A stretch of 45,308 bases of DNA from Candidatus Rifleibacteriota bacterium. GTDB lineage: Bacteria > Muiribacteriota > Ozemobacteria > Ozemobacterales > Ozemobacteraceae. The notes under the pieces are model-generated. The model saw nothing but the letters and a program-made list of their open reading frames with translations. It did not search any database and was not told the DNA's origin. Positions 7,980-25,252 of this stretch are shown one piece after another (the first letter of the stretch is position 1; every line of letters begins with the position of its first letter). The position numbers and the translations under genes are program-made. The stretch covers positions 1-45,308 of the forward strand of contig CAJOQX010000306.1 in assembly GCA_905236865.1 (NCBI GenBank), given 5' to 3'.

Positions 7980-8017
7980 AGATCATTCTCCTAATTGTTA
8001 ACCACAATAATACTCTT

Positions 8018-8048
8018 ATAATATCACATTGTTTCATAATTTTAGCAA
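8018..8048 (-). promoter_or_regulatory. Possible extended -10 promoter of the TPR gene
   Basis: Minus strand: TTGCTA (8048-8043), a 19-bp spacer and TATTAT (8023-8018) preceded by TGA, an extended -10 pattern. The long spacer lowers confidence. It would give a leader of about 35 bases with the AGGAG ribosome site. Confidence 0.4.
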
Positions 8049-8063
8049 TGAAATAAAGAAAAT

Positions 8064-8084
8064 CAGGGCAAACGTAAACTTTTT
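8064..8084 (-). repeat. 21-bp dispersed element, copy B
   Basis: Read on the minus strand it is AAAAAGTTTACGTTTGCCCTG, one mismatch from copy C. It lies between divergent genes. Confidence 0.7.
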
Positions 8085-8097
8085 CTTTTATTGATTG

Positions 8098-8125
8098 ATG
8101 AATCTTTCATAGTTAGTAGATTCAT
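8098..8125. repeat. Hairpin with perfect 8-bp stem
   Basis: ATGAATCT (8098-8105) and AGATTCAT (8118-8125) with a 12-base loop. It has no T-run in either direction, so it is not a classical terminator. It could be an operator or an RNA hairpin. Confidence 0.4.
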
Positions 8126-8286
8126 AATAATGACAATGAGATGCGAGATAATTTAAGAGTTTAGAGATAAGAAATGAAAGATGAGGGAATTGTTGATAAA
8201 AATAAAAGAATATTTTAAAATAAATCTTGAAATAGAATAAAATTAATTAAGATAAAAATAACTAAACAAAATCGAAAGGGGAAAAA

Positions 8287-9258
8287 ATGAAAAAATACGT
8301 TTTTATTATAATAACGCTTATAAGTTTATATATTGCAATGCTTATTATATCCAATATTTGCAATGATTTAGGGAAATACAAAGAAGCTGTTACAGAAGCC
8401 AAAAAAGCTAAACAAGAAGCTGTAGAAGCTGAAAAAAAAGCAAAAATATCTTTGTTGGAAGCTGACAAAAAAACTAAAATTATTATAGAAGAAGCTGAAA
8501 AGAAAGCAAATATAATAATTACCCAAGCAGAAGAAAAAGCAAAATTAGTGGAAACAAAAGCTAAGGAAACAGAAGATAAAGCAAAAGAAGAACAAAAACT
8601 TGCCACAAAACTCATAGAAGAAGCAAAAGAGTCTTCAAGTGATAATTCTACAGTAATGCAGATAATTGCCAAAGCGAAAGAAGATCAGAAAAGAGCTGAC
8701 CAACTATTAGACGAGGTAAAAAAAGAGAAAGAAATTAACAACAATAACTTAAAATTAATTGCTGAACTTTCAGAAAAGAATAAAGCAGAAGAAATAAGAC
8801 TAGCGGATGAAAGACAAAAATTAGAAACTGAAACACAAGAACTAAAAGCACTTCTTTCAAAAACTATAAAAGAAAAAGAAGAAGCTAAAGTTTTGGCTAA
8901 AAATGTGACAAATAATAAAGAAGTCACTAATAAGCTACACGAAAACAACAATAAAAAATCAAATAAGACAAAAAAAGAGAAAAAAGAAGTCACTTATTCG
9001 ACTGATTACGACAATGAAATAATAGCAGATTTCATTAAACAGAAAAACATAGCAAATGATAGAATAACAAATATCATCGCAACATTTGTTAGTGATGAAA
9101 ATATCGTAGTAGATGCTCCTGGACCAAATTCTAAGCTTATTGCTGTTCCTTCTAAAGGTTCTAAATGCGAAGTTTTGGAACAGAAATATTATTGGTATAA
9201 AATTAAATATAATGAATTAATTGGCTGGACTAAAAGATCAAATATTAAGTTTAAATAA
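8287..9258 (+). CDS. Membrane-anchored coiled-coil protein with C-terminal SH3b-like domain
   Basis: A 323-residue protein. One N-terminal membrane span (YVFIIITLISLYIAMLIIS) is followed by a long Ala/Glu/Lys-rich heptad region (about 30-220, for example KKAKQEAVEAEKKAKI), which resembles the rod of TolA-like proteins by composition only. The last 60 residues (IVVDAPGPNSKLIAVPSKG ... YYWYKIKYNELIGWTKRSN) look like a bacterial SH3 domain, which often binds cell-wall material. Type II topology places the rod and SH3b in the periplasm. I infer an envelope-spanning or wall-binding role. Start ATG 8287 follows AGGGG. The antisense ORFs of the track over this gene are shadows caused by its Lys/Glu-rich codons. 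Confidence 0.8.
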   Translation: MKKYVFIIITLISLYIAMLIISNICNDLGKYKEAVTEAKKAKQEAVEAEKKAKISLLEADKKTKIIIEEAEKKANIIITQAEEKAKLVETKAKETEDKAKEEQKLATKLIEEAKESSSDNSTVMQIIAKAKEDQKRADQLLDEVKKEKEINNNNLKLIAELSEKNKAEEIRLADERQKLETETQELKALLSKTIKEKEEAKVLAKNVTNNKEVTNKLHENNNKKSNKTKKEKKEVTYSTDYDNEIIADFIKQKNIANDRITNIIATFVSDENIVVDAPGPNSKLIAVPSKGSKCEVLEQKYYWYKIKYNELIGWTKRSNIKFK

Positions 9259-9317
9259 TAGTTATTGTAAATTTACAAAAAAGTTACCATTACTAACAGT
9301 TAAATTAAAATAAGGTA

Positions 9318-9346
9318 TTGACTGATAAAAGTGCAAGTGCTAGTTT
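9318..9346 (+). promoter_or_regulatory. Possible promoter of the aminotransferase gene
   Basis: TTGACT (9318-9323), a 17-bp spacer and TAGTTT (9341-9346) preceded by TGC (extended -10). The -35 is good, the -10 poor. Confidence 0.4.
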
Positions 9347-9395
9347 ATTTAGCTAAAGTTGTATAAAGCTTTTATCTTAATAATTGGAGTTAATT

Positions 9396-10502
9396 ATGAA
9401 GGTTCCTCTTTTAGACCTAAAACCTCAATATGCACAAATAAAAGATCAAATAGTTCCAGAACTTCTATCTATTTTTGAAAGCCAAGGTTTCATTCTAGGC
9501 CCTAAAGTCGAAAAACTAGAAAAAGAAATGGCTGAATATATTGGTGTAAAATATACTTTGGGCTGTTCGTCTGGAACAGATGCTCTTTTGCTTGCACTTA
9601 AAGCATTAGATATAAAAGAAGGCGATGAAGTTATCACTACCCCGTATACATTTTTTGCAACCGCAGGTTCAATTGCAAGAACAGGAGCAGTAGCTAAATT
9701 TGTCGATATAGATCCAGACACTTTCTTAATGAATGCAAATCAAATAGAAGAAAATTTGACACAAAAAACAAAAGCAATAATTCCAGTTCATCTTTTCGGT
9801 CAATGTGTTGACATGGATACCGTTATGAAAATTGCTGAAAAATATTATATTCATGTTATTGAAGATGCTGCTCAAGCAATTGGAGCTGAATATAAAGGCA
9901 AACAAGCAGGAACTTTTGGAAATGTAGGTTGCTTTAGCTTTTTCCCAAGTAAGAATTTAGGTTGTTTTGGTGATGGTGGTCTTGTATCAACTAACAGTGA
10001 AAAAACCTACCAGCGTATGAAAGGTCTTAGAGTTCATGGTGGTCAAGTTCAATATCAGCACCAAGAAGTTGGTATGAATGCTCGTCTAGATGCTATTCAA
10101 GCCGCTGTAATATCTATAAAATTACCGTTCTTAAAGAGCTGGACAGAAAAAAGACGTAGAAATGCAGAAATTTACAACGAGCTATTCAAAGATAACCAAA
10201 GAGTAATTACTCCTAAAGCAAAACCAGACTGTTACCATATTTACAATCAATACGTCATAAGAATAGACGGAGATCGAGATGCACTAAAAGCTCACTTAGC
10301 TGAAAAAGAAATAGGTTGCTCTGTTTATTACCCACTATCGTTACATCAACAACCCTGTTTCAAATATTTGGGTTACAAAGCAGGCGATTTCCCAGAATCA
10401 GAAAAAGCTGCGGCTACTTCAATAGCATTGCCTATTTATCCCGACCTTACCCAAGAGCAAATTGAATATGTTGCAGAAACAATAAACAATTATCTTAAAT
10501 AA
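9396..10502 (+). CDS. DegT/DnrJ/EryC1-family nucleotide-sugar aminotransferase
   Basis: A PLP-dependent enzyme that transfers an amino group to a keto-sugar nucleotide for surface glycan synthesis. The fold-type I signatures are present: CSSGTDALLLALKAL (phosphate-binding), TTPYTFFATAGSI, IPVHLFGQ, VIEDAAQAIGAEYKG with the PLP-ring aspartate, and FFPSKNLGCFGDGG with the Schiff-base lysine. The C-terminal GMNARLDAIQAAV and YYPLSLHQQPCF are typical of the WbpE/WlbC-like branch. The exact sugar cannot be told. Length 368 is normal. ATG 9396 is chosen because GGAG lies six bases upstream; the track's TTG at 9384 falls within that site. A strong terminator follows at once. Confidence 0.93.
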   Translation: MKVPLLDLKPQYAQIKDQIVPELLSIFESQGFILGPKVEKLEKEMAEYIGVKYTLGCSSGTDALLLALKALDIKEGDEVITTPYTFFATAGSIARTGAVAKFVDIDPDTFLMNANQIEENLTQKTKAIIPVHLFGQCVDMDTVMKIAEKYYIHVIEDAAQAIGAEYKGKQAGTFGNVGCFSFFPSKNLGCFGDGGLVSTNSEKTYQRMKGLRVHGGQVQYQHQEVGMNARLDAIQAAVISIKLPFLKSWTEKRRRNAEIYNELFKDNQRVITPKAKPDCYHIYNQYVIRIDGDRDALKAHLAEKEIGCSVYYPLSLHQQPCFKYLGYKAGDFPESEKAAATSIALPIYPDLTQEQIEYVAETINNYLK

Positions 10503-10510
10503 GATACAAC

Positions 10511-10550
10511 AAAAGCCTAGCAAAAAAAAACAATTGCTAGGCTTTTATTA
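10511..10550 (+). terminator. Rho-independent terminator
   Basis: AAAAGCCTAGCAA (10511-10523) pairs perfectly with TTGCTAGGCTTTT (10534-10546), a 13-bp stem ending in a short T-run, just after the aminotransferase stop. Confidence 0.85.
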
Positions 10551-10594
10551 TAATACCTTTAATACAAAATAAATTGTTATTATTAGGAGAACCG

Positions 10595-11530
10595 ATGTTA
10601 AAAAAAATATTATTTGTTTTTCTATCAATCTTTTTCCTTTTGTCAATGCAAAGTTATGCAGAAGATATGTTTGATTATGTTCCAGGTAATACGGGGCTTA
10701 TTATTCAATCTAACATTAAGCAAATTCAAACTATTCCTGAAGTAAAACAATGGTTAGAAAATGCTGTAATAAAACAGAGCGACAATTATTACGAAGAAAT
10801 AAAAGCAATAGGTTTCAATCCTATAGACGACATAGAATCATTATTGTTATTTGTTCCAACTGAAGCCATATCAGATATTAACAAGTCTAAAACCAACATT
10901 GCATTGTTAGCAAAGGGTAAGTTCAATGTAGATCAAATCATTGAAGAAATTAACAATAAAAAAGAATTATTTGAAGATTTTGAAATTGGAATAGAAAACG
11001 GCTTGCAAAATATTATTATAAACAATAATGGCAACAGATTAAAAATATTATTTATAAATGAATCTACAGTTATTGCAGGCTTTGAAGAAGGTGTAGATAA
11101 TGCGAAATTAGTCAGATATGGTAAAAAAGAAGGGATAAAATCACAAAGGGATTTCTCGACTTTCTTAACAGAATTAGATTCTAATTCTACTTTAGCAGTT
11201 GCAACTGTTGTATCTAATGACACAAGAAAGATTCTTTTAGGAAACGACCAGTTAAAATCTTTAGGAAATCTTTCTTATCTTTTATGTAATCTTACACTTA
11301 CAGATAAACTAGCAATAAATATGACAGGTAGTTTTGCCAACCCCTCAGACATGAAGGCTATAACTAAAGCTATTAATTCTTTTGTAGAAACAATAAAACC
11401 TGCCTCTGAAACAACAAACAAACCCATTGGTGAATTTGCTAAGAATCACAAAGTAACAACCAAAGGTTTGTTAGCAACATTAGACTCAGAAATTTCTAAA
11501 GAAACTTTTTATCAATTTTTAGGTTTGTAA
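10595..11530 (+). CDS. Exported protein of unknown function, paralogue 1
   Basis: A 311-residue protein with a clear signal peptide (MLKKILFVFLSIFFLLSMQSYA). No family is recognised. The mature part begins DMFDYVPGNTGLIIQSN and resembles the next gene, which has NLIPEDTDFIFQINVSKIL at the same place. Both continue with a helical segment and a G.(N/D)P..DI motif (IGFNPIDDIESLLLF versus SGFDPFKDIRNVAIF). The two are therefore tandem paralogues. Start ATG 10595 follows AGGAG at five bases; the track's TTG at 10574 is rejected. The protein is probably periplasmic, as no lipobox or later membrane span is seen. Biochemical role unknown. Confidence 0.8.
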   Translation: MLKKILFVFLSIFFLLSMQSYAEDMFDYVPGNTGLIIQSNIKQIQTIPEVKQWLENAVIKQSDNYYEEIKAIGFNPIDDIESLLLFVPTEAISDINKSKTNIALLAKGKFNVDQIIEEINNKKELFEDFEIGIENGLQNIIINNNGNRLKILFINESTVIAGFEEGVDNAKLVRYGKKEGIKSQRDFSTFLTELDSNSTLAVATVVSNDTRKILLGNDQLKSLGNLSYLLCNLTLTDKLAINMTGSFANPSDMKAITKAINSFVETIKPASETTNKPIGEFAKNHKVTTKGLLATLDSEISKETFYQFLGL

Positions 11531-11646
11531 ATTAAATAGATAAAAAAATATGTCTATTACAGCTAATAATCATAATTAAAGAATAAAAACAAACAGTTTT
11601 ATTATAAAATAGATAAAGAAATACTATGCTAAATAATAACTTACTC

Positions 11647-11679
11647 TTGACATTAACCGCTATATACAGTTATTATAAT
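11647..11679 (+). promoter_or_regulatory. Promoter of exported paralogue 2
   Basis: TTGACA (11647-11652), an 18-bp spacer and TATTAT (11671-11676). A perfect TATAAT overlaps at 11674-11679 but with a 21-bp spacer. Leader about 40 bases. Confidence 0.6.
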
Positions 11680-11719
11680 CTAGGTATTTGTATTCCAAAC
11701 ATTAAGGGAGTAGATATAA

Positions 11720-12748
11720 ATGTTTAAAAAATTAATGCTTTGCATTGCTATTATCGTTGCTATTTCTTGTCAAGCTGTATTTGCTGCTGGCTTAACAAAT
11801 TTGATTCCTGAAGATACAGATTTTATTTTTCAAATAAATGTTTCTAAAATACTTTCTAGTCCAGAAATTCAGAAACAAATACAAGAAGCTCTAAAAAAAG
11901 ATGAAAACCAGCAAAAAATGTTTGAAGAATTTAAGACCAAATCTGGTTTTGATCCTTTTAAAGATATTAGAAACGTAGCTATTTTTACTTCTGGTAAAAT
12001 TGTTGAAAATCAAGAAGCACTTGGTGGAGTTTTAGTTGAAGGTACTTTTGATATACAAAAGTTCGTTGGAGCTATAAAAGATGATAAAAGTGCTATTCAA
12101 GATGTTACTCCAACAGTTATTGATGGTTTTACTTGTATAGTTCCCAAGAATGCTAAAGAAGGCTACGCTATATTCTTAGACAAGAACTATCTTGTTGTTG
12201 GTAGCCAAGCAGGTTGTGATGCTGTAAAAGCAATAAAAATGGCTAAAGCAAAAGCTATCCAAAACAAAGCGTTTTTATCTGTTATGAGCAAAGTTGATTC
12301 AGCTGCAACTTTAAGTGGCGTTGGTTTATTACCAAAAACTTTAAAAGATAAATGTCTTGAAAATCCTAACTTAGCTTTCATAGCAAATATCGATTCTTTC
12401 TTCTTTGATTTCAACAATGATAAAAATATGGTTTTCAACTTTAATGCTCAAATCGACAAAGAAGAAAATGTTAATCCTGTAGTAACTCAACTTACTGGTT
12501 TAGTTCAAATGATTAAAATGATTGCTAGCAGTCAATTGGCTGAAGCAGCTGAAGTAATGAACAAAATAGCTATTACCAGTGAAAAGAATATTGTAAAAAT
12601 GTCTTTTGATATTCCTGCCGATAAAATCATTGAACTCAAAAAGAAAATAGAAGAAAAAGCTAAGGAATTTGAAAAACAAAATGGTGGAAATGGCATTAAC
12701 GCTCCACGTAAAGAACAAGAAAAAGGTAATGATGCTTTACGTCAGTAA
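11720..12748 (+). CDS. Exported protein of unknown function, paralogue 2
   Basis: A 342-residue protein with signal peptide (MFKKLMLCIAIIVAISCQAVFA). It is a paralogue of the preceding gene in its first third, with the same P..T..I.Q.N opening and G(F)DPFKDI motif. A charged C-terminal tail (KKKIEEKAKEFEKQNGG...) is probably a helix followed by a disordered end. Start ATG 11720 follows AAGGGAG. It has its own promoter and a terminator, so it can be expressed separately from its sister. I see no catalytic motif; it could be a periplasmic binding or scaffold protein. Confidence 0.8.
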   Translation: MFKKLMLCIAIIVAISCQAVFAAGLTNLIPEDTDFIFQINVSKILSSPEIQKQIQEALKKDENQQKMFEEFKTKSGFDPFKDIRNVAIFTSGKIVENQEALGGVLVEGTFDIQKFVGAIKDDKSAIQDVTPTVIDGFTCIVPKNAKEGYAIFLDKNYLVVGSQAGCDAVKAIKMAKAKAIQNKAFLSVMSKVDSAATLSGVGLLPKTLKDKCLENPNLAFIANIDSFFFDFNNDKNMVFNFNAQIDKEENVNPVVTQLTGLVQMIKMIASSQLAEAAEVMNKIAITSEKNIVKMSFDIPADKIIELKKKIEEKAKEFEKQNGGNGINAPRKEQEKGNDALRQ

Positions 12749-12776
12749 AATAAATAGCTAGTTATAATAAAGAAAT

Positions 12777-12820
12777 AAAAAGAAACTAGTTTTAATATTA
12801 ACTAGGTTCTTTTTATTTTT
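12777..12820 (+). terminator. Rho-independent terminator
   Basis: AAAAAGAAACTAGTT (12777-12791) pairs with AACTAGGTTCTTTTT (12800-12814) with one mismatch, followed by a long T-tract. It closes the exported-paralogue gene. Confidence 0.8.
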
Positions 12821-12895
12821 TTTGTATTATTATTTTTTTAATCATTATTTCATATTTTTCATAAAACTTTTTAAACAGAAACAAAGTAAAATAAG

Positions 12896-12925
12896 TTGTG
12901 AGAAACAAAAAAGATATAGTATAAT
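12896..12925 (+). promoter_or_regulatory. Possible promoter of the pilin-like cluster
   Basis: TTGTGA (12896-12901), an 18-bp spacer and a perfect TATAAT (12920-12925), giving a short leader before ATG 12957. Confidence 0.5.
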
Positions 12926-12956
12926 AAAAGATAAACAAGCAAAAATAGGGTACATA

Positions 12957-13787
12957 ATGAGCAACGAAAATAATGAATTAACAATAGAAAACTTTTTAAA
13001 AAAAGTTCAAGAAGGCGATAACACTCTTTTAATCATCGGAGCTGTTTTAATGATTGTTCCAATGATCACTTTGTTTTTCCTTGTAGGCGGTAAAGCCGAT
13101 AAAAAAGCGACTCAGCATAAACTAAAAACTATGCAACGAAAAAATGTATATAGTTATTTAAGAAAAGAAAACAACAAATCTACAAATTCTGCTACCAAAA
13201 AAACGAGCTCTAGTAGTTCTTCTAGTAATTGGTCTTTTACTCCTCGAACCTTAGAACAAAAGATAGCTGATGAATTAAGAGAAGCCGCTTTAACCGTAGA
13301 GAGACAATGTTCTCAAGTTAGAGTTCCTCCAGGATTAACAGGAGATGCTAGAAATATATATATTGCAGAACATAACTACAATCTTAGTATGGGTAATGGT
13401 TCATTAGATTTAGGTAATTATAGAGAAGCCGAAAATTATTTTCAAAAAGCTCTTGATGAAGCAGACGACAACCCTTTTTTGAAATTATACGCTTTGGGAG
13501 GCTTATGTGCTGTTTACGAAAAAACAGGAGATATAGCAAGGCTACAAGAAGCATATAGTAGATATTTTGATGCAATCAAAAATGATATACCACCAGAATT
13601 TGGGGGAGGTATAGATTTAAAAGGTTCTATTAGCAATGCTTATAAATCTTTGGTTTCAGTAGGAAAATACGCCTTAGAATCAGAATTATCCAAAGCAATA
13701 TCTGAAACAAAAAGATTCAAATCTGGTATTCCATCTGAAATTAACATACGTGATGCCTACAAAAGTTTTCCCTTCAAATACGAATAG
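12957..13787 (+). CDS. Single-span membrane protein with TPR-like domain
   Basis: A 276-residue protein. A short cytoplasmic head (MSNENNELTIENFLKKVQEG) is followed by a membrane span (about 24-45, LLIIGAVLMIVPMITLFFLV), a Lys/Ser-rich linker (KKTSSSSSSSNWS) and a helical domain with TPR features (GNYREAENYFQKALDEADDNP). The ORF-track start at 12822 lies in the preceding terminator. ATG 12957 has AGGG six bases upstream and a TATAAT box just before, so it is chosen. It is the first gene of the pilin-like cluster, 11 bases before the PilX-like gene, so an accessory or assembly role is inferred. No specific family is recognised. Confidence 0.75.
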   Translation: MSNENNELTIENFLKKVQEGDNTLLIIGAVLMIVPMITLFFLVGGKADKKATQHKLKTMQRKNVYSYLRKENNKSTNSATKKTSSSSSSSNWSFTPRTLEQKIADELREAALTVERQCSQVRVPPGLTGDARNIYIAEHNYNLSMGNGSLDLGNYREAENYFQKALDEADDNPFLKLYALGGLCAVYEKTGDIARLQEAYSRYFDAIKNDIPPEFGGGIDLKGSISNAYKSLVSVGKYALESELSKAISETKRFKSGIPSEINIRDAYKSFPFKYE

Positions 13788-13798
13788 AGGAGCATAAT

Positions 13799-16663
13799 AT
13801 GAACAAATTCACAATCAATAAAAAAACAGGAAGTGTTTTTATTACTGTTATTGGAATTTTAGGTGTAATTATTTTTGCTGCGACAATATTTATGTCCTCT
13901 ACTATTCAAGAAGGAAGAGAAACAAATCTGTCTATAAGAGGTCTTCATGCTTCATCGCTTGCTGAAGCTGCATTAGAGCGAGCAATGAATAAAATAATAA
14001 AAGACATAAACAAAATCGATTTAGCCCAAACCAAGTCGACAGATTTATCAATCGCTCTACGCCTACCTGCCCCAGAAGGCAGTTCAAATCTAGGTTTAGC
14101 ATCAAATCTTGGGAATGATAATGTTTTACAATTATCGAATGATGTAACAAAAGAAATAGAGTTTGATAAAAATAGTCTCCAAGACGAAAAGAAAGATTTA
14201 GACGATTTAGTCAAATTTATGACTGATAATGCAGAATATGAAGTTTCAGTTAAAGCCAAAATTACTCATGCATTTAGAAATTCACCAGGAACTGACAATT
14301 CTAACTATAAAATTCCTGGAGTCGATATTTCTTGGAACACAAGAAAAGACGTTAATTCTTTATTAGATGGAGAAGGTTATAGAGCTTGGGAATTAAAATT
14401 TCCAGATAATATGAAATGGTTTCAATTTAAAATTCCTATAAAATTATTTGGTTTTGAAATAGCTAGTGTTGACGTTGTAAAAGTTGTAAGTGATTTATCT
14501 AAAGCTGCTTTTGGTTTCAGTAATCCTAGTATTGAAGACATGACTACTATGAATTGGTTAGCAGATAAGCTAATGAATGACGTAATAGCAAAAGTGGGCT
14601 CATTTATTTCAGGCAACAATATAAATGATTTGTATCCGATAGAAATAAATGTTCAAAAGGGAAATATGCCAAAAACTGTTTCAGAACTATGGCCAGCAGG
14701 GACAAACATAACAGAACAAGAAAATCAATATTTTGAAAAATATGGACAAATATCTTTCGATTGTGAAGCAAAAATTAAATATAAAGATGGCTACACTTCA
14801 ACAAGACGATTAAATGCAGTAAAAGATTTTAAGGTATCTGACTGTGAACCGCCTGCTTCTATGTATAGTTTTTTTATAGCAAATGAAGACAACAAACAAA
14901 TATTATTTAACGATGTTGGCGGACAAATGTATATAAATAGCGTATCTTATTCTAACATAGGAGCTTATGCATTAGGTTTACTAAAAGATGCAGTTTCAGA
15001 TGGCAGTAAAAATGACGACATGAATAAATTAGAATTTCCTGGTTTAATAAGGATTAATTCAAAAACCGACAAACCTATTGAATGTAATGTAAGTTTAATG
15101 GGTGATAGATCTCAAACAGAAATAGTAAACAAAGATAAAGACGGAAATATAATCAAAGAAAACAACACTGGTTTTCAAAGTTTTCTTGGTGATGCTAGGG
15201 ATATTCTCAACGGCTTAGATGCTACATTATTGGTTAAATCAAAAAGAGATGTAAAAAAAGCAAATGTTTCCTATAGTGTTGATGTAAAAAAAGAAGAAAA
15301 AAAGCCAAAGGAACCATCTGTAGACAAATCAGAATCTGACAACGGAAACGTTCCCGCAAACGATAATAAAAATAACAACGATGATAAATCAAACAAAGAT
15401 GATGATAATTCAGGAACAAAAACTTCCGTTTCGGGTAAATTATCTGCAAAAAGAGATAGAATATCTATCAAAGAATTATCTGGTTTGCTAGGAACAAAAG
15501 GAATTGGCATGAATTTAGTTCCTGCAGTAAATAATATGGGTTGTAATGTTATAGAATTGGCAATATGTTTAGCTCTTATGCCACTAGGAGAACAGCTTGT
15601 AGAAGCAATAGACGACCAAACAAAAGAGGCTGGCTTTGGAAAGTACGTTTCGCTCACAGGTGGCTTAAGTAATATTGTTGACGAAATGGATTGTTTTGAA
15701 ACTTGGGAAATGCCTTATATGGGAACAAGAAATTCACTATTTACTTGGCCTAATCTTGGAGGAAACTATAATAGAACACATTTATTTGGATATGCTGGTT
15801 TCCATCCTCCGTTAACAAGAGAAATTGAAGGAAATGTTGTCGCTAAGTATAGACAATGGAGAATGTGCATTCTAGGGATGACTTTATCGGATAAAATATA
15901 TATTGGCGTTGTACCTATACCTCCAATTCCTGCACCTTTATGGAAATCAACAGAACAAACATTTAAATATGGCTATAATATCCCTGGGTTTAAAAGTTTA
16001 GATGATAATGGAGATGACGATAGCACAGTACATACTTATGATCCTGCTGTAGAAGAAAATAAAGTTCCTAATTTATATACAGGAGAACAATATGCTAAAA
16101 AAGCTACATATTACTATGAAAAAGAAAGCGATTTTCTTGAAGACCTTCCAAATAGAATGGCTGTTGTCAAAGGGAAAAAATGCCTTGTTTTAAACGGAAT
16201 AACTTATGTAGCAGATAGCATTAGCGATTTTCGTGTTGCAGACTCTGACACTCTATATGTTGTTGGAAAAGGCATGATTGTTGTTAGCGGTAACGTTAAA
16301 CTAGGTTGCAATATAGTCTGCATAGACAATGACGAAAAAGATGATAAAGAAAAAACGGTATTTTCTTTAATTTGTCGAAAAGGCGGTCTAATTATGTTAG
16401 AACCGAATTCTTTTTTACTTGAAGGATCTCTTTATACAGATAAAGGAATTATTATGGGGCCTAGTTCAAGTTTGCACATTCTTGGCAACTGGGTTACTAA
16501 TGTTTTTGAAAGAGACAAAATTGCAGGAACACTTGTCGTTGACTATATTTCATCTCGAACCAGAACAGATGTAGGTAGTCTGCATCCTACTAGAGGGAAA
16601 TATAATCCCAAAAGATATAATATTTCATTTAGCCCTGTATGGTCTACTTGGAGAGCATATTAA
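13799..16663 (+). CDS. Giant PilX/GspK-like minor (pseudo)pilin
   Basis: A 954-residue protein. The N-terminus (NKKTGSVFITVIGILGVIIF) has the class IV prepilin layout: basic leader, glycine, hydrophobic helix. It lacks Glu at +5, as do GspK and Pseudomonas-type PilX. LHASSLAEAALERAMNKI fits the PilX-type N-terminal helix. PilX/GspK proteins sit at or near the pilus/pseudopilus tip and are usually 150-350 residues. This one has a large globular middle, a Lys/Asp/Asn-rich linker (about 490-550) and a C-terminal beta-rich part (about 800-930: VVGKGMIVVSGNVKLGCNIVC). It may act as a tip adhesin. Start ATG 13799 follows AGGAG at six bases. Its stop overlaps the start of the next pilin gene (TAATG). 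Confidence 0.8.
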   Translation: MNKFTINKKTGSVFITVIGILGVIIFAATIFMSSTIQEGRETNLSIRGLHASSLAEAALERAMNKIIKDINKIDLAQTKSTDLSIALRLPAPEGSSNLGLASNLGNDNVLQLSNDVTKEIEFDKNSLQDEKKDLDDLVKFMTDNAEYEVSVKAKITHAFRNSPGTDNSNYKIPGVDISWNTRKDVNSLLDGEGYRAWELKFPDNMKWFQFKIPIKLFGFEIASVDVVKVVSDLSKAAFGFSNPSIEDMTTMNWLADKLMNDVIAKVGSFISGNNINDLYPIEINVQKGNMPKTVSELWPAGTNITEQENQYFEKYGQISFDCEAKIKYKDGYTSTRRLNAVKDFKVSDCEPPASMYSFFIANEDNKQILFNDVGGQMYINSVSYSNIGAYALGLLKDAVSDGSKNDDMNKLEFPGLIRINSKTDKPIECNVSLMGDRSQTEIVNKDKDGNIIKENNTGFQSFLGDARDILNGLDATLLVKSKRDVKKANVSYSVDVKKEEKKPKEPSVDKSESDNGNVPANDNKNNNDDKSNKDDDNSGTKTSVSGKLSAKRDRISIKELSGLLGTKGIGMNLVPAVNNMGCNVIELAICLALMPLGEQLVEAIDDQTKEAGFGKYVSLTGGLSNIVDEMDCFETWEMPYMGTRNSLFTWPNLGGNYNRTHLFGYAGFHPPLTREIEGNVVAKYRQWRMCILGMTLSDKIYIGVVPIPPIPAPLWKSTEQTFKYGYNIPGFKSLDDNGDDDSTVHTYDPAVEENKVPNLYTGEQYAKKATYYYEKESDFLEDLPNRMAVVKGKKCLVLNGITYVADSISDFRVADSDTLYVVGKGMIVVSGNVKLGCNIVCIDNDEKDDKEKTVFSLICRKGGLIMLEPNSFLLEGSLYTDKGIIMGPSSSLHILGNWVTNVFERDKIAGTLVVDYISSRTRTDVGSLHPTRGKYNPKRYNISFSPVWSTWRAY

Positions 16664-17175
16664 TGAAAAATTCAACCTTAAACCAAAAAGGAACTTCCTT
16701 AATAGAAATAATCATTGCAGTATTTATAATAGCTTGTGCTTTTATACCTATACTTAGATTAGTTGATTATGGTTCTGTTTCCACTGCAAAAATAGGTAAC
16801 TATGCAAAAGCAACAAGATTAGCCCAAGAACTCATCGAAGAATTTAAACACGTTCCTTTTAAAGTCATCAATGATACCTACAAAGATTTTCCTGTTGGGG
16901 AATGGCGAGATGAAGGTATTCCAGAATCTTACTATTCGGAAACCCAAAGAAAAATTGAAGAATTTAGAACCGAAGGCGAAAAAACAAAAAGCGTAAAAGA
17001 CTTCGACTGCAAAACAAAAGTAAAAATATATAAAAATGATTTCGATCAAATAAATGAAATTTGGCTTGAAGTTGAAATTGGTTGGTATGATATGGGTACT
17101 ATTGAAAAAGCTAAAGGAACAAAAAGATTAATAAAAGTAGCCAATGCTTACCATAATGCAGAAGCTATATATTAA
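16663..17175 (+). CDS. PilV/GspI-like minor prepilin
   Basis: A 170-residue prepilin. NQKG-TSLIEIIIAVFIIACAF is a standard type IV prepilin cleavage and methylation motif (cut after Gly, Glu at +5) followed by a membrane helix. A small globular domain follows (about 60-165). GspI and PilV are the nearest families by size and by the AKATRLAQELIEEFK segment. It would be processed by a prepilin peptidase encoded elsewhere. ATG 16663 overlaps the previous stop by one base, implying translational coupling; the track's start at 16639 lies inside the upstream gene. Confidence 0.85.
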   Translation: MKNSTLNQKGTSLIEIIIAVFIIACAFIPILRLVDYGSVSTAKIGNYAKATRLAQELIEEFKHVPFKVINDTYKDFPVGEWRDEGIPESYYSETQRKIEEFRTEGEKTKSVKDFDCKTKVKIYKNDFDQINEIWLEVEIGWYDMGTIEKAKGTKRLIKVANAYHNAEAIY

Positions 17176-17216
17176 TAAAACCCACGTAGAATGTTATCTA
17201 TTTTAGGAGCAAAAAA

Positions 17217-18647
17217 ATGATTATTAAGCAGCAAAAAAATAATATGAGCAAAAAAGCTTTCACATTAGTTGAGATTATGGTAGCAATAGTCATAACCACA
17301 ATAGTTCTAACTGCTGCTTTTACTATTTGGTCTAGAATAAGATTACGAATTTCACGTTCCTATACCAAACAAACATTACAAAATGAACTTAGAAAAATTG
17401 CAAACTATATGCAAAATGATTTCAAATCTATAAGGTATTATAGAGATGGAGACGAATCCAAACCCATAGAATTACCAAATAACAATACAAACTGGACTCT
17501 ATCATTTCAAAAGTTTAAAGAAATAGATGAAAGTAGTAAAGACAAATTAGCTCAAGATATTCTTGAAGAAGTAAAATATTCTTTAAACAATAAAGTACTA
17601 AAAAGAAATAACAAATTATTATCTGCTAATTGTGAGTCTGTACAAATTATTCGAGCAACAGAAGAAAAAAGCAATATATATGAAGATAAAAGATTAGAAG
17701 AAGCTAGAGATTCCAAACTAGAAATCGAAATAACTGGGGTATTAAGAGTTCCTGGTACCACAGAAGAAGAATATCATGTAGAAAAAACTTCAGTAGTTAT
17801 GCGTAACGAATACTATACTAAAATAAATAAGAATTATAAATCCAACTTTGATTTGCAAAAAATGGGTAACGTAGTTGTAGAAGCAGATTTAGGGAAAATT
17901 GATTTGGCAAGTCAATCTAACGAAGCATTAAAAGAAATGTTGGCAACTTTAGAGCAAACAATGATTAAATGTAATGAAAACCTAGATAATATAAATTCAG
18001 CCATGGGCGATGAAGAACCAGAAGGAGTCCATTGGTGGGAAAAATTAGGTGCTTGGCTTGGTGCAGACAACTTATATGGAGAATTTAAAAATGAAAGAAA
18101 TAAATTAGTTGCTGCTGATACTATTGATGAGGTTAATAAGGCTGTTGAAGATATACAAAAAAAAGTTGACGAAGACGAAGAAAAATTCTTCAAAAATTCA
18201 TATAGTGGCTATGATAAATTAACTAATGAAGAAAAAAAAGAGTTTAAAAAAGCTTATGATATGAAAGTTCATGACAAAAATATGGAAGATGCCTACAAAA
18301 AACTTAACAATGGGAAAGAACCTATTACTAATGAAAAAATACTTAATGCCCAAGCAAATGGGAATAAGTTAGATGAAAATGGGAAAGAAACCACTATATT
18401 AGATGGTGGAGGTGATTCATCAATTGTTGAACAAAAGAAACAAGAAGCTAACAATATTCTATCCTATTATAATAATATTTCTTTAGATTGGATGGATAAA
18501 TCAGAATATAAAGAAATAATAGGAACTTACCAATCTAGAAAAAATTTATTAGAATCTGCTAATACAAAAATAGAACTAATAAAAGTTAAAGATGAATGTA
18601 ATAGAGATAAAAATGAAGTAGAAAAAGAATTAGCTTCAAGAAAATAA
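17217..18647 (+). CDS. PilW/GspJ-like prepilin with long helical C-terminal extension
   Basis: The first 210 residues are a prepilin of the PilW/GspJ type: SKKAFTLVEIMVAIVITTIVL with Glu at +5. Cleavage would follow Ala rather than the usual Gly. A beta-rich domain follows, ending near TSVVMRNEYYTKINK. The last 250 residues are unusual: highly charged, predicted helical (EALKEMLATLEQTMIKCNENL, VNKAVEDIQKKVDEDEEKFF) and unlike ordinary PilW. Total length 476 is well above the usual 200-350. Start ATG 17217 follows AGGAG at seven bases and adds a ten-residue leader before the second possible Met. The extension may be exposed on the filament or bind another component. Confidence 0.8.
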   Translation: MIIKQQKNNMSKKAFTLVEIMVAIVITTIVLTAAFTIWSRIRLRISRSYTKQTLQNELRKIANYMQNDFKSIRYYRDGDESKPIELPNNNTNWTLSFQKFKEIDESSKDKLAQDILEEVKYSLNNKVLKRNNKLLSANCESVQIIRATEEKSNIYEDKRLEEARDSKLEIEITGVLRVPGTTEEEYHVEKTSVVMRNEYYTKINKNYKSNFDLQKMGNVVVEADLGKIDLASQSNEALKEMLATLEQTMIKCNENLDNINSAMGDEEPEGVHWWEKLGAWLGADNLYGEFKNERNKLVAADTIDEVNKAVEDIQKKVDEDEEKFFKNSYSGYDKLTNEEKKEFKKAYDMKVHDKNMEDAYKKLNNGKEPITNEKILNAQANGNKLDENGKETTILDGGGDSSIVEQKKQEANNILSYYNNISLDWMDKSEYKEIIGTYQSRKNLLESANTKIELIKVKDECNRDKNEVEKELASRK

Positions 18648-18785
18648 AAAAAATCTTGAAAATATTACAAAAATTTTTAATATTAGTTAAAAGTATCTTT
18701 TATACAAATTATGTGTTACAATAAATAAGATATTTCTTTGTCATTGTGATTTAAATCAAACTTTGATATATAGGAGTAAAGTTTT

Positions 18786-19991
18786 ATGGCAACATTCACC
18801 TATAAAGCCAAAAACTACGACGGCAAGATTGTTTCTGCCGAAATGGATTGTGATTCAAAAGAAGTTTGTATTAGCAAGCTTCGTGAAAAAGGTTATTTTG
18901 TAATTAATATTGCCGAAAAAAAAGGTGGCGGAGCTGGCAATATGAGTTTATTCCAAAGAGGGGTAAACTCACAAGAAGTAAGTATTTTTGCTAGACAGTT
19001 TGCAACAATGATTGGTTCTGGTGTTCCTCTTGTTAGATGTCTAACGATTCTTCAGTCGCAAGCTGAAAATCCTACTTTTAAGAAGATAATTAGCCAAATA
19101 AGAACAGATGTTGAAGGTGGTGCAACTTTCTCAAAAGCTCTAGAAAAACATCCTAAAGTATTTAGCAACTTGTTTTGTTCTCTAGTTAAAGCTGGTGAAA
19201 TAGGTGGTATTCTTGATACAATTCTCGAAAGACTTGCAGAATATCTCGAAAGCTCAGAAGCACTAAAAGCTAAAATCAAAGGTGCAATGACTTACCCAAT
19301 CGTTGTATTCGCAATTGCTGGTTTGGTTGTTGTTGCATTGGTTATGTTCGTTTTGCCACAGTTCAAAGAAATCTTCATGGGTATGAATATTGAATTGCCA
19401 ATGGCAACAAAAATTCTGTTGGCAACGTCTGACTTCATGGTAGGTTGGTGGTTTGTTATTATTCCAGCTATTATTCTTATACCACTTTTAATTTGGAAAT
19501 TCTTCCAAACTAAAACAGGTTCAAGAATTTGGGATACAAACATACTTCGTGTTCCTAATCTTGGGTTGATGATGAGAAAAGTTGCTGTTGCAAAATTCAC
19601 AAGAACTCTTGGTACTCTTATTTCATCAGGCGTTCCGATTTTGCAAGCTCTTGAAGTTACTTCTCAAACCGCTGGTAATATAGTTATTTCCGAAGCTGTT
19701 GATAAAACTCGTGTATCAATCAGAGAAGGTGAATCCATTGCAGAACCTCTTAAGAGTTCAGGCGTTTTCCCTCCAATGGTTGTTCAAATGATTGCAGTTG
19801 GTGAAGAAACAGGTGAATTAGACAAGATGTTAACTAAGATTGCAGACTTCTATGACTCCGAAGTCGATACAGCCGTTAAAGGTTTGACATCAGTTATCGA
19901 ACCTCTGGTTATCGTTGTTCTCGGTGTTGTAATCGGTGGTATTGTTATGGCAGTTTTCATGCCAATGCTCAAATTGGTTAACGTTAACTAA
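18786..19991 (+). CDS. pilC: PilC/GspF inner-membrane platform protein
   Basis: Polytopic protein that forms the inner-membrane platform of type IV pilus and type II secretion machines and couples the assembly ATPase to pilin addition. Two T2SSF domains are visible (about 65-190 and 270-395), each with the FARQFATMIGSGVPL / FTRTLGTLISSGVPIL motif and a following GE..G.L segment (VKAGEIGGILDTIL; VAVGEETGELDKML). About three membrane spans, including IVVFAIAGLVVVALVMFVL and VIVVLGVVIGGIVMAVFMP. Length 401 is typical. Start ATG 18786 follows AGGAG. Codon choice looks more biased (GGT, GTT, GCT) than its neighbours, suggesting higher expression. No ATPase, secretin or peptidase is nearby. Confidence 0.95.
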   Translation: MATFTYKAKNYDGKIVSAEMDCDSKEVCISKLREKGYFVINIAEKKGGGAGNMSLFQRGVNSQEVSIFARQFATMIGSGVPLVRCLTILQSQAENPTFKKIISQIRTDVEGGATFSKALEKHPKVFSNLFCSLVKAGEIGGILDTILERLAEYLESSEALKAKIKGAMTYPIVVFAIAGLVVVALVMFVLPQFKEIFMGMNIELPMATKILLATSDFMVGWWFVIIPAIILIPLLIWKFFQTKTGSRIWDTNILRVPNLGLMMRKVAVAKFTRTLGTLISSGVPILQALEVTSQTAGNIVISEAVDKTRVSIREGESIAEPLKSSGVFPPMVVQMIAVGEETGELDKMLTKIADFYDSEVDTAVKGLTSVIEPLVIVVLGVVIGGIVMAVFMPMLKLVNVN

Positions 19992-20004
19992 TAGTTTTCC
20001 CATC

Positions 20005-20044
20005 AAAAACAAAAAACCTCGCTTATGCGAGGTTTTTTGTTTTT
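20005..20044 (+). terminator. Strong rho-independent terminator
   Basis: AAAAACAAAAAACCTCGC (20005-20022), loop TTAT, then GCGAGGTTTTTTGTTTTT (20027-20044): an 18-bp perfect stem with T-rich 3' arm after pilC. It could act in both directions. Confidence 0.92.
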
Positions 20045-20102
20045 GGTTTAATTCCTATTGAACAGATACCTATATTTAACTTCTGCAACAGAGAGTAACA
20101 AA

Positions 20103-20123
20103 AAAAAGTTTGCGTTTGCCCTG
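20103..20123 (+). repeat. 21-bp dispersed element, copy C
   Basis: AAAAAGTTTGCGTTTGCCCTG, between the pilC terminator and the large exported protein gene, 60 bases upstream of its ATG. One mismatch each to copies A and B. Confidence 0.7.
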
Positions 20124-20182
20124 TAATAGCCTTTAAACTATATTGAAGTTTGTTCCTTTATTATGATAGTATAAGAATATCT

Positions 20183-23100
20183 ATGAAAAAGAAACGCTTA
20201 CAATCTCTATTTTTACTAATCTTTTTACTTTGCTTAACTTTAGCCTTTTTAGGCTATGGTTGTGGTGGTAATGGTGGAGTTGGACGAGTAATCAATAAAG
20301 AATCTCCTCTTTCTTTATCAGGAAAAGCTTTTTTTCGTGAGCGTCAAGTATATGCAAATATTCCAATTTTTGTGAAAAACCTTCTAAATGAAACAGTTGC
20401 TGTTACTACTACTGATATTAGTGGTTATTATTCTTTTACAAACATTCAACCAGGCACTTATTATCTTTCAGCAACTACTGGTGAAAGTGAAGTAACTTTT
20501 GGAAATATGGTTCAAGTTACAGATCAGGGTGCTACAGAGATTGAACCCGTATCATTATTATGTATTAACAATGTAATAGTAGATTCAATAAGTTCAAATT
20601 CTTTCCACTTAGAATTTAGAACAAATCAGTCTTGTACTTCATTAGTTAGATATAGTGCAACAGGTGGATATGAAATAACTAGAGAAATATCTAAAACTAG
20701 CAAAAATCATCATGATATAACAATAACAGATCTTAATGCTCTCACAAATTATGAAATATCAATTGATTTGGTGGGCAATGATGGGCAAAAATTTACAATG
20801 AACGGATTGACTGCTCATACAATAGGTTTTGCAGGATGTTCCAATATTTCTGTAAACATAGACAATGGAGCTTATGAAACAATAAATCAAACCGTAACAT
20901 TATCTTTAAACGCAAAAGATTGCTATTTAATGAGGATAAGTGAAGATTATTCAATGGATGAATCTTCTTGGATAGCTTATTCCCAAAATTATACTCATAA
21001 TTTTTCAAATACATCAAGTGGAATTAAACGTTTATATGTTCAATTTCGCGATAAAAGTGGTTTAGAATCGCCTATAATATCTGACTCTATTGTTTATACT
21101 ACCTCTGGATATTTAGGCGTATGGATAAATAACGGTGAGGCAATCACAAATCAATCAACGGTTGAAGTTAAAGCTGTATGTCCTGGAGCAACTCACATGT
21201 TAATTTCAGACAATCCTAATTTTTCTAATTCATTTTGGGAAACTTATGTAGCTTTAAGGAAATGGCAATTTAATTCTACAGAAGGGATAAAATACATATA
21301 TTGTAAATTTAAAGGTGGCGCAGCTAACCCAGAAGAAGTATTTAAAACATCAATTCTTTATGACAACTCACCGCCAAAAGTTGAAGTTATAATAAATAAT
21401 GGCGTAAAATCAGTCGCAACTAATACTGTTGAAATACAATTTAGGTATACTAGCTTGCCTTCATATATGAAAATATCTAACACTACTGCACCAACTTCTT
21501 CAGATGATTGGCAAACTTTTAAAACTCCAATACAATGGACTCTACCGCTTGGAGATGGAGAAAAAACAGTTTATGCCATCTTTAAAGATGATGCTGGAAA
21601 CGAATACGGACCAGTTGAGGCAGAAATAGCAATAGATACTGTTGCACCAACAGGAAATACTATTGCAATATTAGAATCAGATAATCCGTCTTCTCAAGAA
21701 ATTTCTAAAGTTTTGTATGAGAAATTACCTGCTTATCTACATTTCAATATTTCAGATGATTCAACAAAAACAATTTACTATCATATAGGTCTAGCAACTT
21801 CAACTATACCAACAGAATATAATGAACTATCCTATCCTGCTAATCCAATCTCATTAAATACAGATATATTATTTATTGGTAACATTAGAATTTGGGCTTA
21901 TTTTGTTGATGAAGCAGGAAATAAAAGTCCTGTATCTTACGTATCACTAGAAGTCGAAGGAGCTGAAATAATCGTATCACCCAGTATTGTAGGTTTAAGA
22001 GCTTCTGGAGAACAAAGTTTCTCAGTAACATACAACAACCTAGACGAAGGAGATATAGGTAGTATAAAATGGATAGCTTCTGGTCCTGGAAGAATGACAC
22101 AAGAGAACGCCGTTTACAAAGCTCCGAATATTATTTGGGAATATGAAGAAGTAACCATAATAGCAACCCCTACTCATCAGCCCAAAAAAATTTCTTATGA
22201 TATTTTTGGAATTGCTACGGTTTCCCTACAGGCAACCCCACAAGTTGTTTATTTACAAAATAACGGAACTTATACTACAGATTTCACAGAAATGCAAATT
22301 GAACCAAATGGAACAGCAATTTTCAACGTTTATGTTATTCCTGATACAACAGGAATAAGAATAACTTCTGTTAAAAGTTTAAATAACAGATTACTTGGAA
22401 CAGCTACAGTTGTATATGAAGAAGCACCTTATGGAAGTATAGCAACTATTACCTATATTCCAAATAGGGAATTTCCTGAGGAGGCTGATAATGATGAAGT
22501 AACCATTAATTTTCAAACACAAGGATCTTCCCCAATTGCAGGTAAAGTCAATGTTGTAATATTCCACGGTGCAAAGATTATTTTAACAGGAACTTCTGAT
22601 ATAACACAAAAAGGAACAGAATTAGTAGTATCTCCCAATATATCAAATACTGGAAGCAGCGTTGTACACTGGGAATTATCCCCTCCTTATGGAGCTAGCT
22701 TTTCTGATGATGAAGATAATCCTCAAAGTGCAACAGATACTCTAAAAGTCGAAAAAGTTAAGATTTATTCTTTAGCTACTGACTCTTACATACCAACTAC
22801 ACTAACAGCGTCAATAGATGGTGCAAAAAAAACTTATGAATTTACAGCTTATCCTCCTCTCAAACTAAGATTAAATATAAATGCAACCGATGCAATGCCA
22901 CTAGCTGACCCAATGATTTTTACAGCAACTTTTGATTTTGTCAACGGTAGTATTGATGAAACAATAGATTGGACATATAAAAATGCAAATAGAAAAACTC
23001 CGATGCCTGCAAATGGGAATTCTTATGCAGATAGAGGAACTTTAACTCAACAAAATAATTATCAGGTAGAATATAAACGTCCAACCAATCGCCCTAGCGA

Positions 23101-24763
23101 AGATGATAAAACTGCTTCAGATATTGTTGAAGTTTATGCAACATCTCGAATAGACCCAAATGCTAGTGATTGCGTAAGAATAAGAATTCGTGAAGGTGTA
23201 GTAGTAGAAATATTCAAAGACATACAAAAAAATGAACCAATAACAGATGCGTATACAAATATTGAAGTAGGAACTTTACAATTTTATGTAAAAGTTACTC
23301 CCGAAATAATAAATAACACATCTGTAACTTGGACTGTCAACGGTGTTACTAGTTCAGATATCTATGGCAGCATTGATAGCAATGGAAAATATACAGCCCC
23401 TAGTTCTTATGAATCTAATTCAGTAACAGTAAGAGCTACTTCAAATTATAACCCATCGGTTTTTAAGGATGTCACAGTTCATTTAAGTGAATTTTGGAAA
23501 CCTATAGCTAGCAACATGAAAGACGAAGACACAGAGGAACCCATGCCTATCAGCAAAGTTTTTGTGGATCCAAGCACTAGTAAGGGAAAAGATTTTGTCG
23601 TGTATGCTGGAACTGGAGCAGAAAACCAATTTGGATATTATGGATTATGGTATGCAAACTTTCCCGACTCTGAAACAACCGAAACAGAAGAAGAAAATAA
23701 AGATTGGTGGATTGGAGTTGGGGGACTTTCTAGTAGAAGTAGAACTGCAAGTTTAAGCTATTTAATTTATGATATAACAATGGATAAGGAAAAAAATATT
23801 TATGTAAGTACTGGAAGCGGTATTTTTTATATAGATTTAAATTCATCAGATCCTAACAATCAAGCTATATTATTAAATCTTACCTCTGGAGCAAATATAC
23901 CTCCATTAACAAGCCTTGTTGCAGCCTTTGATAATTATGGTAATACTTTGTTATTAGCAGGTTCTAAAAATGGAGTTTATTCATTTACTATACCAAAAGA
24001 AAACCCCTACAAGCCATGGGTAGTAAGTTCTCGCAAATTATTAATTGATACCAAAACGCCCTATAGAGAGCAAGAAACACGAACCGAAATAGTAAAAGTA
24101 ATTGAAAACGGAGAAGAGAAAGATGTAGAAGATAAAAAAACTGCTTATTCAAACAATTTAATACCAAATCCAATTTCATCAGCTGTTCGTTCTCTTAGAT
24201 TCGATAGCTTAAATAAATCTTTATATTTTGGCACTTCTTCTGGAAGAATCTACCATTGTGAGAGTTTGGAACCAAATATGGAAAATATAAATGCTGATGT
24301 GTTTTTGGATTCATCATCAATAAAAACAGTTTCTACCAATGTTGATATATATCCTGATTTATCTTATCCTCCTTATGGTGAAGTAAATGGAGTTCCATTG
24401 GCAATAGCTTTAGACGTTATAAATACTAACACCTTATGGACTGCTACTACAAGTGGTGTTTCAAGATCTATTGATTATGGAAGCTCTTGGTCTTCGTTTA
24501 GTTTTGGTGGTGTTGATACCAACAGTAAATGCATTATTGTTGACCCCAATAATACTATAAACGTTATGGCAGGGAGTGAAGATGGGCTTTATCGCTCCAC
24601 TGATGGTGGTAACACTTGGACTAGAATAAGAAGCGGATTATACAATTACAAAACCATTACAACTTTAACTCAAGCTCATGGAGCTGCTAACGAAAGAAGA
24701 AAGGTATGGGTTGGAACATCAGGCGGAGTCTTTATGAGTAGACAATCCCTCTCTTTGGAATAG
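20183..24763 (+). CDS. Giant exported multidomain surface protein (possible lipoprotein)
   Basis: A 1526-residue protein with a signal sequence (LQSLFLLIFLLCLTLAFLGYGC). The cysteine is lipobox-like, but glycine at -3 is unusual, so lipidation is uncertain. Order: a carboxypeptidase-regulatory/SdrD-type beta-sandwich (about 35-130, ISGYYSFTNIQPGTYYLSA), fibronectin- and Ig-like repeats (to about 1110; VTWTVNGVTSSDIYGSIDSNGKY is a Big2-like end), and a C-terminal propeller with BNR/Asp-box repeats (SIDYGSSW, STDGGNTW) and GVYSF/GVFMS blades. No catalytic triad or glycosidase motif is seen. Likely an adhesin or binding protein on the cell surface. ATG 20183 lacks a Shine-Dalgarno site; the track's TTG at 20150 would spoil the signal peptide. 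It stands alone between a terminator and the thioredoxin-like gene. Confidence 0.85.
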   Translation: MKKKRLQSLFLLIFLLCLTLAFLGYGCGGNGGVGRVINKESPLSLSGKAFFRERQVYANIPIFVKNLLNETVAVTTTDISGYYSFTNIQPGTYYLSATTGESEVTFGNMVQVTDQGATEIEPVSLLCINNVIVDSISSNSFHLEFRTNQSCTSLVRYSATGGYEITREISKTSKNHHDITITDLNALTNYEISIDLVGNDGQKFTMNGLTAHTIGFAGCSNISVNIDNGAYETINQTVTLSLNAKDCYLMRISEDYSMDESSWIAYSQNYTHNFSNTSSGIKRLYVQFRDKSGLESPIISDSIVYTTSGYLGVWINNGEAITNQSTVEVKAVCPGATHMLISDNPNFSNSFWETYVALRKWQFNSTEGIKYIYCKFKGGAANPEEVFKTSILYDNSPPKVEVIINNGVKSVATNTVEIQFRYTSLPSYMKISNTTAPTSSDDWQTFKTPIQWTLPLGDGEKTVYAIFKDDAGNEYGPVEAEIAIDTVAPTGNTIAILESDNPSSQEISKVLYEKLPAYLHFNISDDSTKTIYYHIGLATSTIPTEYNELSYPANPISLNTDILFIGNIRIWAYFVDEAGNKSPVSYVSLEVEGAEIIVSPSIVGLRASGEQSFSVTYNNLDEGDIGSIKWIASGPGRMTQENAVYKAPNIIWEYEEVTIIATPTHQPKKISYDIFGIATVSLQATPQVVYLQNNGTYTTDFTEMQIEPNGTAIFNVYVIPDTTGIRITSVKSLNNRLLGTATVVYEEAPYGSIATITYIPNREFPEEADNDEVTINFQTQGSSPIAGKVNVVIFHGAKIILTGTSDITQKGTELVVSPNISNTGSSVVHWELSPPYGASFSDDEDNPQSATDTLKVEKVKIYSLATDSYIPTTLTASIDGAKKTYEFTAYPPLKLRLNINATDAMPLADPMIFTATFDFVNGSIDETIDWTYKNANRKTPMPANGNSYADRGTLTQQNNYQVEYKRPTNRPSEDDKTASDIVEVYATSRIDPNASDCVRIRIREGVVVEIFKDIQKNEPITDAYTNIEVGTLQFYVKVTPEIINNTSVTWTVNGVTSSDIYGSIDSNGKYTAPSSYESNSVTVRATSNYNPSVFKDVTVHLSEFWKPIASNMKDEDTEEPMPISKVFVDPSTSKGKDFVVYAGTGAENQFGYYGLWYANFPDSETTETEEENKDWWIGVGGLSSRSRTASLSYLIYDITMDKEKNIYVSTGSGIFYIDLNSSDPNNQAILLNLTSGANIPPLTSLVAAFDNYGNTLLLAGSKNGVYSFTIPKENPYKPWVVSSRKLLIDTKTPYREQETRTEIVKVIENGEEKDVEDKKTAYSNNLIPNPISSAVRSLRFDSLNKSLYFGTSSGRIYHCESLEPNMENINADVFLDSSSIKTVSTNVDIYPDLSYPPYGEVNGVPLAIALDVINTNTLWTATTSGVSRSIDYGSSWSSFSFGGVDTNSKCIIVDPNNTINVMAGSEDGLYRSTDGGNTWTRIRSGLYNYKTITTLTQAHGAANERRKVWVGTSGGVFMSRQSLSLE

Positions 24764-24788
24764 TTTGTCTCTCATCTCTACATCTTTA

Positions 24789-24817
24789 TTGTTGTTTAGA
24801 CAAGTCTATGATATAAT
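24789..24817 (+). promoter_or_regulatory. Extended -10 promoter at leaderless distance
   Basis: TTGTTG (24789-24794), a 17-bp spacer and a perfect TATAAT (24812-24817) preceded by TGA (extended -10). The ATG at 24824 begins seven bases after the -10 box, so the transcript would start at or beside the start codon. Confidence 0.6.
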
Positions 24818-24823
24818 CTATTT

Positions 24824-25246: not shown

Positions 25247-25252
25247 ACATAT

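Follow-up and report, generated by a model that had tools for sequence, protein, structure and literature searches.

What is the role of a protein that begins like a minor pilin and runs to 954 residues? The question is raised by a gene at 13799-16663 on the forward strand of the window, i.e., the whole 45,308-nucleotide stretch analyzed here, one contig of the 440 that make up a genome with 78.6% completeness. The giant protein probably occupies the K position among the minor pilins of a type IV filament and caps its tip, with a predicted beta-solenoid module adding to its size.

Gene and N-Terminus

The boundaries of the 954-residue reading frame given in the initial annotation are exact: an AGGAG ribosome-binding site precedes the ATG, and the gene is conserved in relatives. 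Eighteen full-length relatives (889–969 aa, 33–57% identity) are spread over the Ozemobacteraceae, and the giant gene is therefore real and under constraint. The features of the locus are as follows:

12822-13787, + strand: TPR protein with one N-terminal transmembrane (TM) segment, from its mechanical start, TTG 12822
13788-13792, + strand: ribosome-binding site AGGAG, 6 nt before the ATG, read from the sequence
13799-16663, + strand: giant protein, a probable K-position minor pilin; ATG start, 954 aa, ~105 kDa when mature
13799-13831, + strand: prepilin-type leader MNKFTINKKTG, with cleavage expected after Gly11
13832-14005, + strand: alpha1 helix, hydrophobic half first, +5 = Thr (AlphaFold helix 13–69)
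14006-15298, + strand: predicted pilin-like body, with long strands and a mostly helical insert, then a mixed region up to residue ~500 (AlphaFold secondary structure)
15299-15508, + strand: mostly disordered polar linker, residues 501–570 (AlphaFold; relatives compared)
16097-16549, + strand: predicted beta-solenoid core, residues 767–917 (AlphaFold, full and isolated models)
16616-16657, + strand: last strand, residues 940–953, with a proposed return to the pilin sheet
16663-17175, + strand: I-position minor pilin, PilV/GspI-like, 170 aa, Glu+5 (model matches, motif scan)
17217-18647, + strand: J-position minor pilin with a GspJ/PilW-like N-terminus, 476 aa, Glu+5 (model matches, motif scan)
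18786-19991, + strand: PilC/GspF platform protein (T2SSF, 2e-70)
20003-20046, + strand: strong intrinsic-terminator-like hairpin ending the unit (20-bp stem and T run)

Read from the sequence, the leader is short and basic; S-V-F-I-T and a hydrophobic stretch come after it. The giant protein thus has the basic leader ending in Gly or Ala and the hydrophobic alpha1 that mark a type IV (pseudo)pilin. Its N-terminus had been described as PilX/GspK-like without Glu+5, which holds for the protein, with Thr at +5, and for its family. In a motif scan of relatives and paralogs, position +5 is occupied by I, V, T, M, L, or F and never by Glu (0 of 32); the 19 orthologue-type sequences have I, V, T, M, or L there. 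Position −1 is Gly in the 32 relatives, except for Ala in two. Among the I- and J-type partners, Glu+5 is present wherever the scan found them, although the scan sought Glu and so shows its presence rather than its exceptionlessness.

Profile models recognize the family only at its margins. No Pfam or NCBIfam family, including GspK, T2SSK, and PilX_N, reaches its cut-off for the giant protein, and the PilX_N and N_methyl models give no match at E up to 0.1. The GspK model gives a weak, sub-cut-off match (E 0.0013) to the N-terminal 76 residues of one relative (L050), and a paralog on contig C241 is borderline for PilX_N, with 26.4 bits in the genome search and 21.4 in hmmscan against a cut-off of 25.5. 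The size thought unusual at first is so only by comparison with textbook GspK/PilX, GspK being exceeded about threefold (307 positions in the NCBIfam model); within the phylum, where paralogs span 580–1070 aa, it is ordinary.

Operon Structure

The giant gene is encoded with I- and J-type minor pilin genes, and its stop codon overlaps the ATG of the I-position gene in the sequence TAATG (translational coupling). The I and J products carry Glu at +5, while the giant protein does not. Together, a prepilin N-terminus without Glu+5, coupled K-I-J genes, PilC, and a terminator make up the layout expected of a tip-capping subunit in the GspK/PilX position, and the tip-type minor pilin proposed initially is well supported on these grounds. 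The order TPR/TM protein, giant, I, and J is found in most relatives checked, and the likely true start of the TPR/TM gene, ATG 12957, aligns with relatives. In the near relative G003, PilC is absent from the corresponding place.

The I and J partners match GspI/GspJ-type models as well as PilV. No GspC/L/M or secretin gene lies beside the cassette within the window, and an Rfam search of 8000-26000 gave no match. The J-type minor pilin is enlarged too, at 476 aa versus 192 positions in the GspJ model. In many relatives, several GroEL/GroES-type chaperonin genes adjoin the pilin cassette (L040, L042, L043, L045, and L046).

Several relatives encode a 1200–1290-aa Ig/fn3 lipoprotein directly after J (e.g., L039, 14254-17850). 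Its ortholog in the window genome is located away from pilins on contig C362 (3236-6808, L160). A different lipoprotein of 1537 aa follows the cassette in the window (20150-24763); it is a candidate surface protein with SdrD_B, fn3, and Ig-like domains and two propeller-like Asp-box motifs near its C-terminus. This protein was ruled out as an operon partner: it is unrelated to the cassette-adjacent lipoprotein of relatives, and it is probably a separate transcription unit because the terminator at 20003-20046 intervenes.

Predicted Fold

A full-length AlphaFold model, built on 32 sequences (mean pLDDT 76, pTM 0.76), predicts that the N-terminal half is pilin-like and that a beta-solenoid lies in the C-terminal half. 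It thereby confirms the beta-rich C-terminus and supports the second functional module on a pilin that had been anticipated. A single 57-residue alpha1 (13–69) is followed by long strands with pLDDT over 90 (146–160, 314–327, and 333–348), and a mostly helical insert (residues ~183–297) separates the first two. Since the protein has no long hydrophobic helix other than the N-terminal alpha1 of pilin type, the refuting option raised with the initial annotation, an unrelated inner-membrane protein, is disfavored. Despite the long, confident strands, a Foldseek search of PDB structures found no significant pilin match for the full model.

The linker, which the model shows as disordered at about residues 505–568, had been called acidic. 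Residues 500–570 hold 13 D/E versus 14 K/R, so the region, while polar and N/D/K-rich, is not net acidic. It is also poorly conserved, with length and charge varying among relatives; an acidic linker as a functional element was rejected.

The solenoid core begins at an invariant Q764/K767/K768 motif, of which K767 and K768 are invariant in 32 relatives. When residues 628–954 were modeled in isolation, the solenoid (767–917) remained confident, while strand 940–953 went from continuous (pLDDT ~90) to broken (~53) and residues 628–757 also lost confidence, a comparison confounded by the different alignment behind the second model. Loss of the strand in isolation is what would be expected if, as in ComZ of Thermus thermophilus, the solenoid interrupted the pilin fold. 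Judging from secondary structure and model confidence, the solenoid may be inserted before the last pilin strand, with which the lost strand is consistent without being proof.

Comparison with Known Tip Pilins

A Foldseek search of the full model against 350,542 PDB chains ranked ComZ (6qvi) first with a weak score (E 0.085); the lower-ranked matches included beta-helix proteins. ComZ was again first for residues 628–954 alone (E 0.69), followed by the ice-binding protein FfIBP, which the ComZ authors report to be nearest to the solenoid of ComZ (PMC6561018). Taken individually, both ComZ matches are non-significant, with probabilities below 0.1, and the searches overlap in one region and are not independent; that the same tip pilin ranks first twice is suggestive only.

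The resemblance extends to architecture. By prediction, the giant protein has the beta-solenoid on a pilin without Glu5 that defines the ComZ family: both are large minor pilins lacking this residue (Gly at 5 in ComZ) that join a pilin domain to a large beta-solenoid. ComZ has a GspK-like pilin domain, a proposed tip location, and a neighboring minor pilin with which it works, and the giant protein is predicted to be arranged alike. In contrast to ComZ, the giant protein has an extra mid-region, a predicted helical insert, and a disordered linker, and its 954 aa compare with 518 residues in the longest ComZ crystal chain. No PDB sequence matched the giant-protein profile at E up to 1, i.e., homology to ComZ is not detectable by sequence, and a search of a viral structure library gave nothing meaningful.

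GspK and PilX share with the giant protein the K-I-J partners, the lack of Glu5, and the proposed tip-capping position, and relatives of the giant protein show the weak N-terminal match to the GspK model. GspK and PilX homologs both lack Glu5 (PMC7541494), and the HIJK minor pilins of type IV filaments assemble into a complex at the tip, where a subunit without this residue forms the cap (PMC10191384). The giant protein differs in being about three times longer, in lacking the T2SSK domain, and in having its K gene first in the cassette. Six genomes gave Pfam T2SSK matches above cut-off, which were rejected as GspK because those read are Tex RNA-binding proteins with HhH domains. The common HhH domain carries Tex over the T2SSK cut-off (contig C68 of the window genome, G000, and relatives L136, L141, L151, and L152), a trap for GspK annotation.

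The modular pilins PilB and PilC of S. sanguinis and CofB of ETEC likewise carry an added module on the pilin, which the filament displays. S. sanguinis PilB retains Glu5 and carries a vWA module, whereas the module of the giant protein is a predicted solenoid and is probably inserted rather than appended. Protein A of the Verru_Chthon cassette (TIGR02600) belongs to a very long family (model of 1296 positions) whose N-terminus is similar to that of giant relatives. This similarity is limited to the N-terminus of a few relatives (best E 0.0044; residues 8–67 where read). The family is named as part of a multi-gene cassette, and protein C of this cassette also resembles the J pilin at the N-terminus (E 0.019); a literature search on the Verru_Chthon cassette found no paper.

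Proposed Role and Alternatives

As a K-position tip pilin, the giant protein would first lose its 11-residue leader to prepilin peptidase. Because it lacks Glu+5, it would need no subunit above it and could sit first at the tip. The I and J pilins would dock below, the trio would prime assembly, and the filament would carry the K protein through a secretin, so that the solenoid may be displayed outside as a ligand-binding surface.

The same tip subunit could instead belong to a type II secretion (T2SS)-like pseudopilus, in which the solenoid would contact a periplasmic substrate and push it through the secretin rather than serve as an outside adhesin. GspK is the tip of the T2SS, the I and J partners also fit GspI/GspJ-type models, and seven secretins and numerous filament ATPases are encoded in the genome. 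This reading is nonetheless unlikely, given that a genuine GspK domain was not found in the genomes and that the cassette lacks adjacent GspC/L/M or secretin genes in the window. That the protein is no pilin at all, but a membrane-anchored periplasmic or surface protein with a chance Gly-hydrophobic N-terminus, would account for the silence of the PilX_N and N_methyl models. The K-I-J linkage, the conserved −1 Gly and long alpha1, the PilC gene in the operon, and the top structural match to ComZ make this very improbable.

Two further alternatives concern what the solenoid does. Since ComZ ranks first among solved structures and likewise combines a solenoid with the lack of Glu5, the giant protein might sit at the tip of a competence pilus as its DNA receptor. 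ComZ binds DNA aided by two lysines between its domains (PMC6561018), which recalls the invariant K767 and K768, but the lysines are not position-matched, a sequence relation to ComZ is not detectable, and several paralogs per genome speak against one dedicated function, so that a DNA receptor seems quite unlikely. The remaining alternative, raised by the initial annotation, is a tip pilin fused in a single chain with the adhesin and priming role of PilY1. PilY1 is a non-pilin with a beta-propeller; a tip or adhesin role is the proposed common ground. PF05567 (PilY1) was found in 0 of 40 Riflebacteria genomes, in which minor-pilin cassettes are abundant; this fits another protein doing the job of PilY1, but the search was run without a positive control. 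The giant protein has no PF05567 C-terminal beta-propeller. Its module is a predicted solenoid resembling ComZ and ice-binding proteins, so the PilY1-like nature suggested for it is not supported structurally, and the cassette-adjacent Ig/fn3 lipoprotein of many relatives could hold a non-pilin tip or surface role. A PilY1-like fusion is accordingly improbable.

Distribution and Paralogs

The giant-protein family is present in the host genus and the Ozemobacteraceae. A search recovered the C-terminal module from each of the 40 Riflebacteria genomes, with 1 to 11 matches per genome, while the full-length protein had no match in 17 sampled genomes from outside the phylum. A scan of named genomes for close relatives with the single protein returned nothing; a profile scan gave matches, those with names being Riflebacteria, unclassified, or apparently mislabeled bins. 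The named relatives are Candidatus Riflebacteria and Ozemobacter, the nearest being isolate Reindeer_2_mag_167 and uncultured bacterium RUG334.

The window genome itself contains further cassettes in which a giant protein without Glu+5 precedes I/J-like genes, on contigs C118 (846 aa), C227 (887 aa), and C232 (~870 aa). The cassette on C227 has its own PilB and PilC, and similar giant proteins also occur on C58 and C241. The genome encodes a prepilin peptidase, many PilB/PilT-type ATPases, and the seven secretins. Such paralogous cassettes within one genome point to several filaments with a separate tip for each. It is conceivable, if doubtful, that Riflebacteria lack PilY1 and instead use giant solenoid tip pilins, one per cassette, so that several filaments would be armed with different built-in tips. 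PilT-type ATPases are unusually numerous and often paired (C168, C357, C212, and C294), suggesting several retractable filaments.

Novelty and Significance

No description of a phylum-wide giant tip-pilin family was found in the literature. The proteins represent a new family of modular tip pilins but not a new kind, because modular pilins (PMC8179133) and one solenoid tip pilin (PMC6561018) are already known. The one clear precedent for a solenoid-enlarged tip pilin is the DNA-binding ComZ of Thermus, and the present family carries this single well-studied case over to an entire phylum, most of it uncultured, whose genomes have several paralogs each. It suggests that a binding module built into the K-position pilin is a general substitute for a separate tip adhesin, and the C-terminal module lends itself, as a clean and conserved target, to structural and ligand studies.

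Other Genes in the Window

Upstream of the cassette, two adjacent genes (10574-11530 and 11720-12748) encode secreted proteins of ~320–340 aa that have similar opening motifs after the signal peptide and match no Pfam family above cut-off. At the far end of the window, 42938-45205 encodes a nucleotidyl cyclase with a GAF domain and a C-terminal zinc ribbon.
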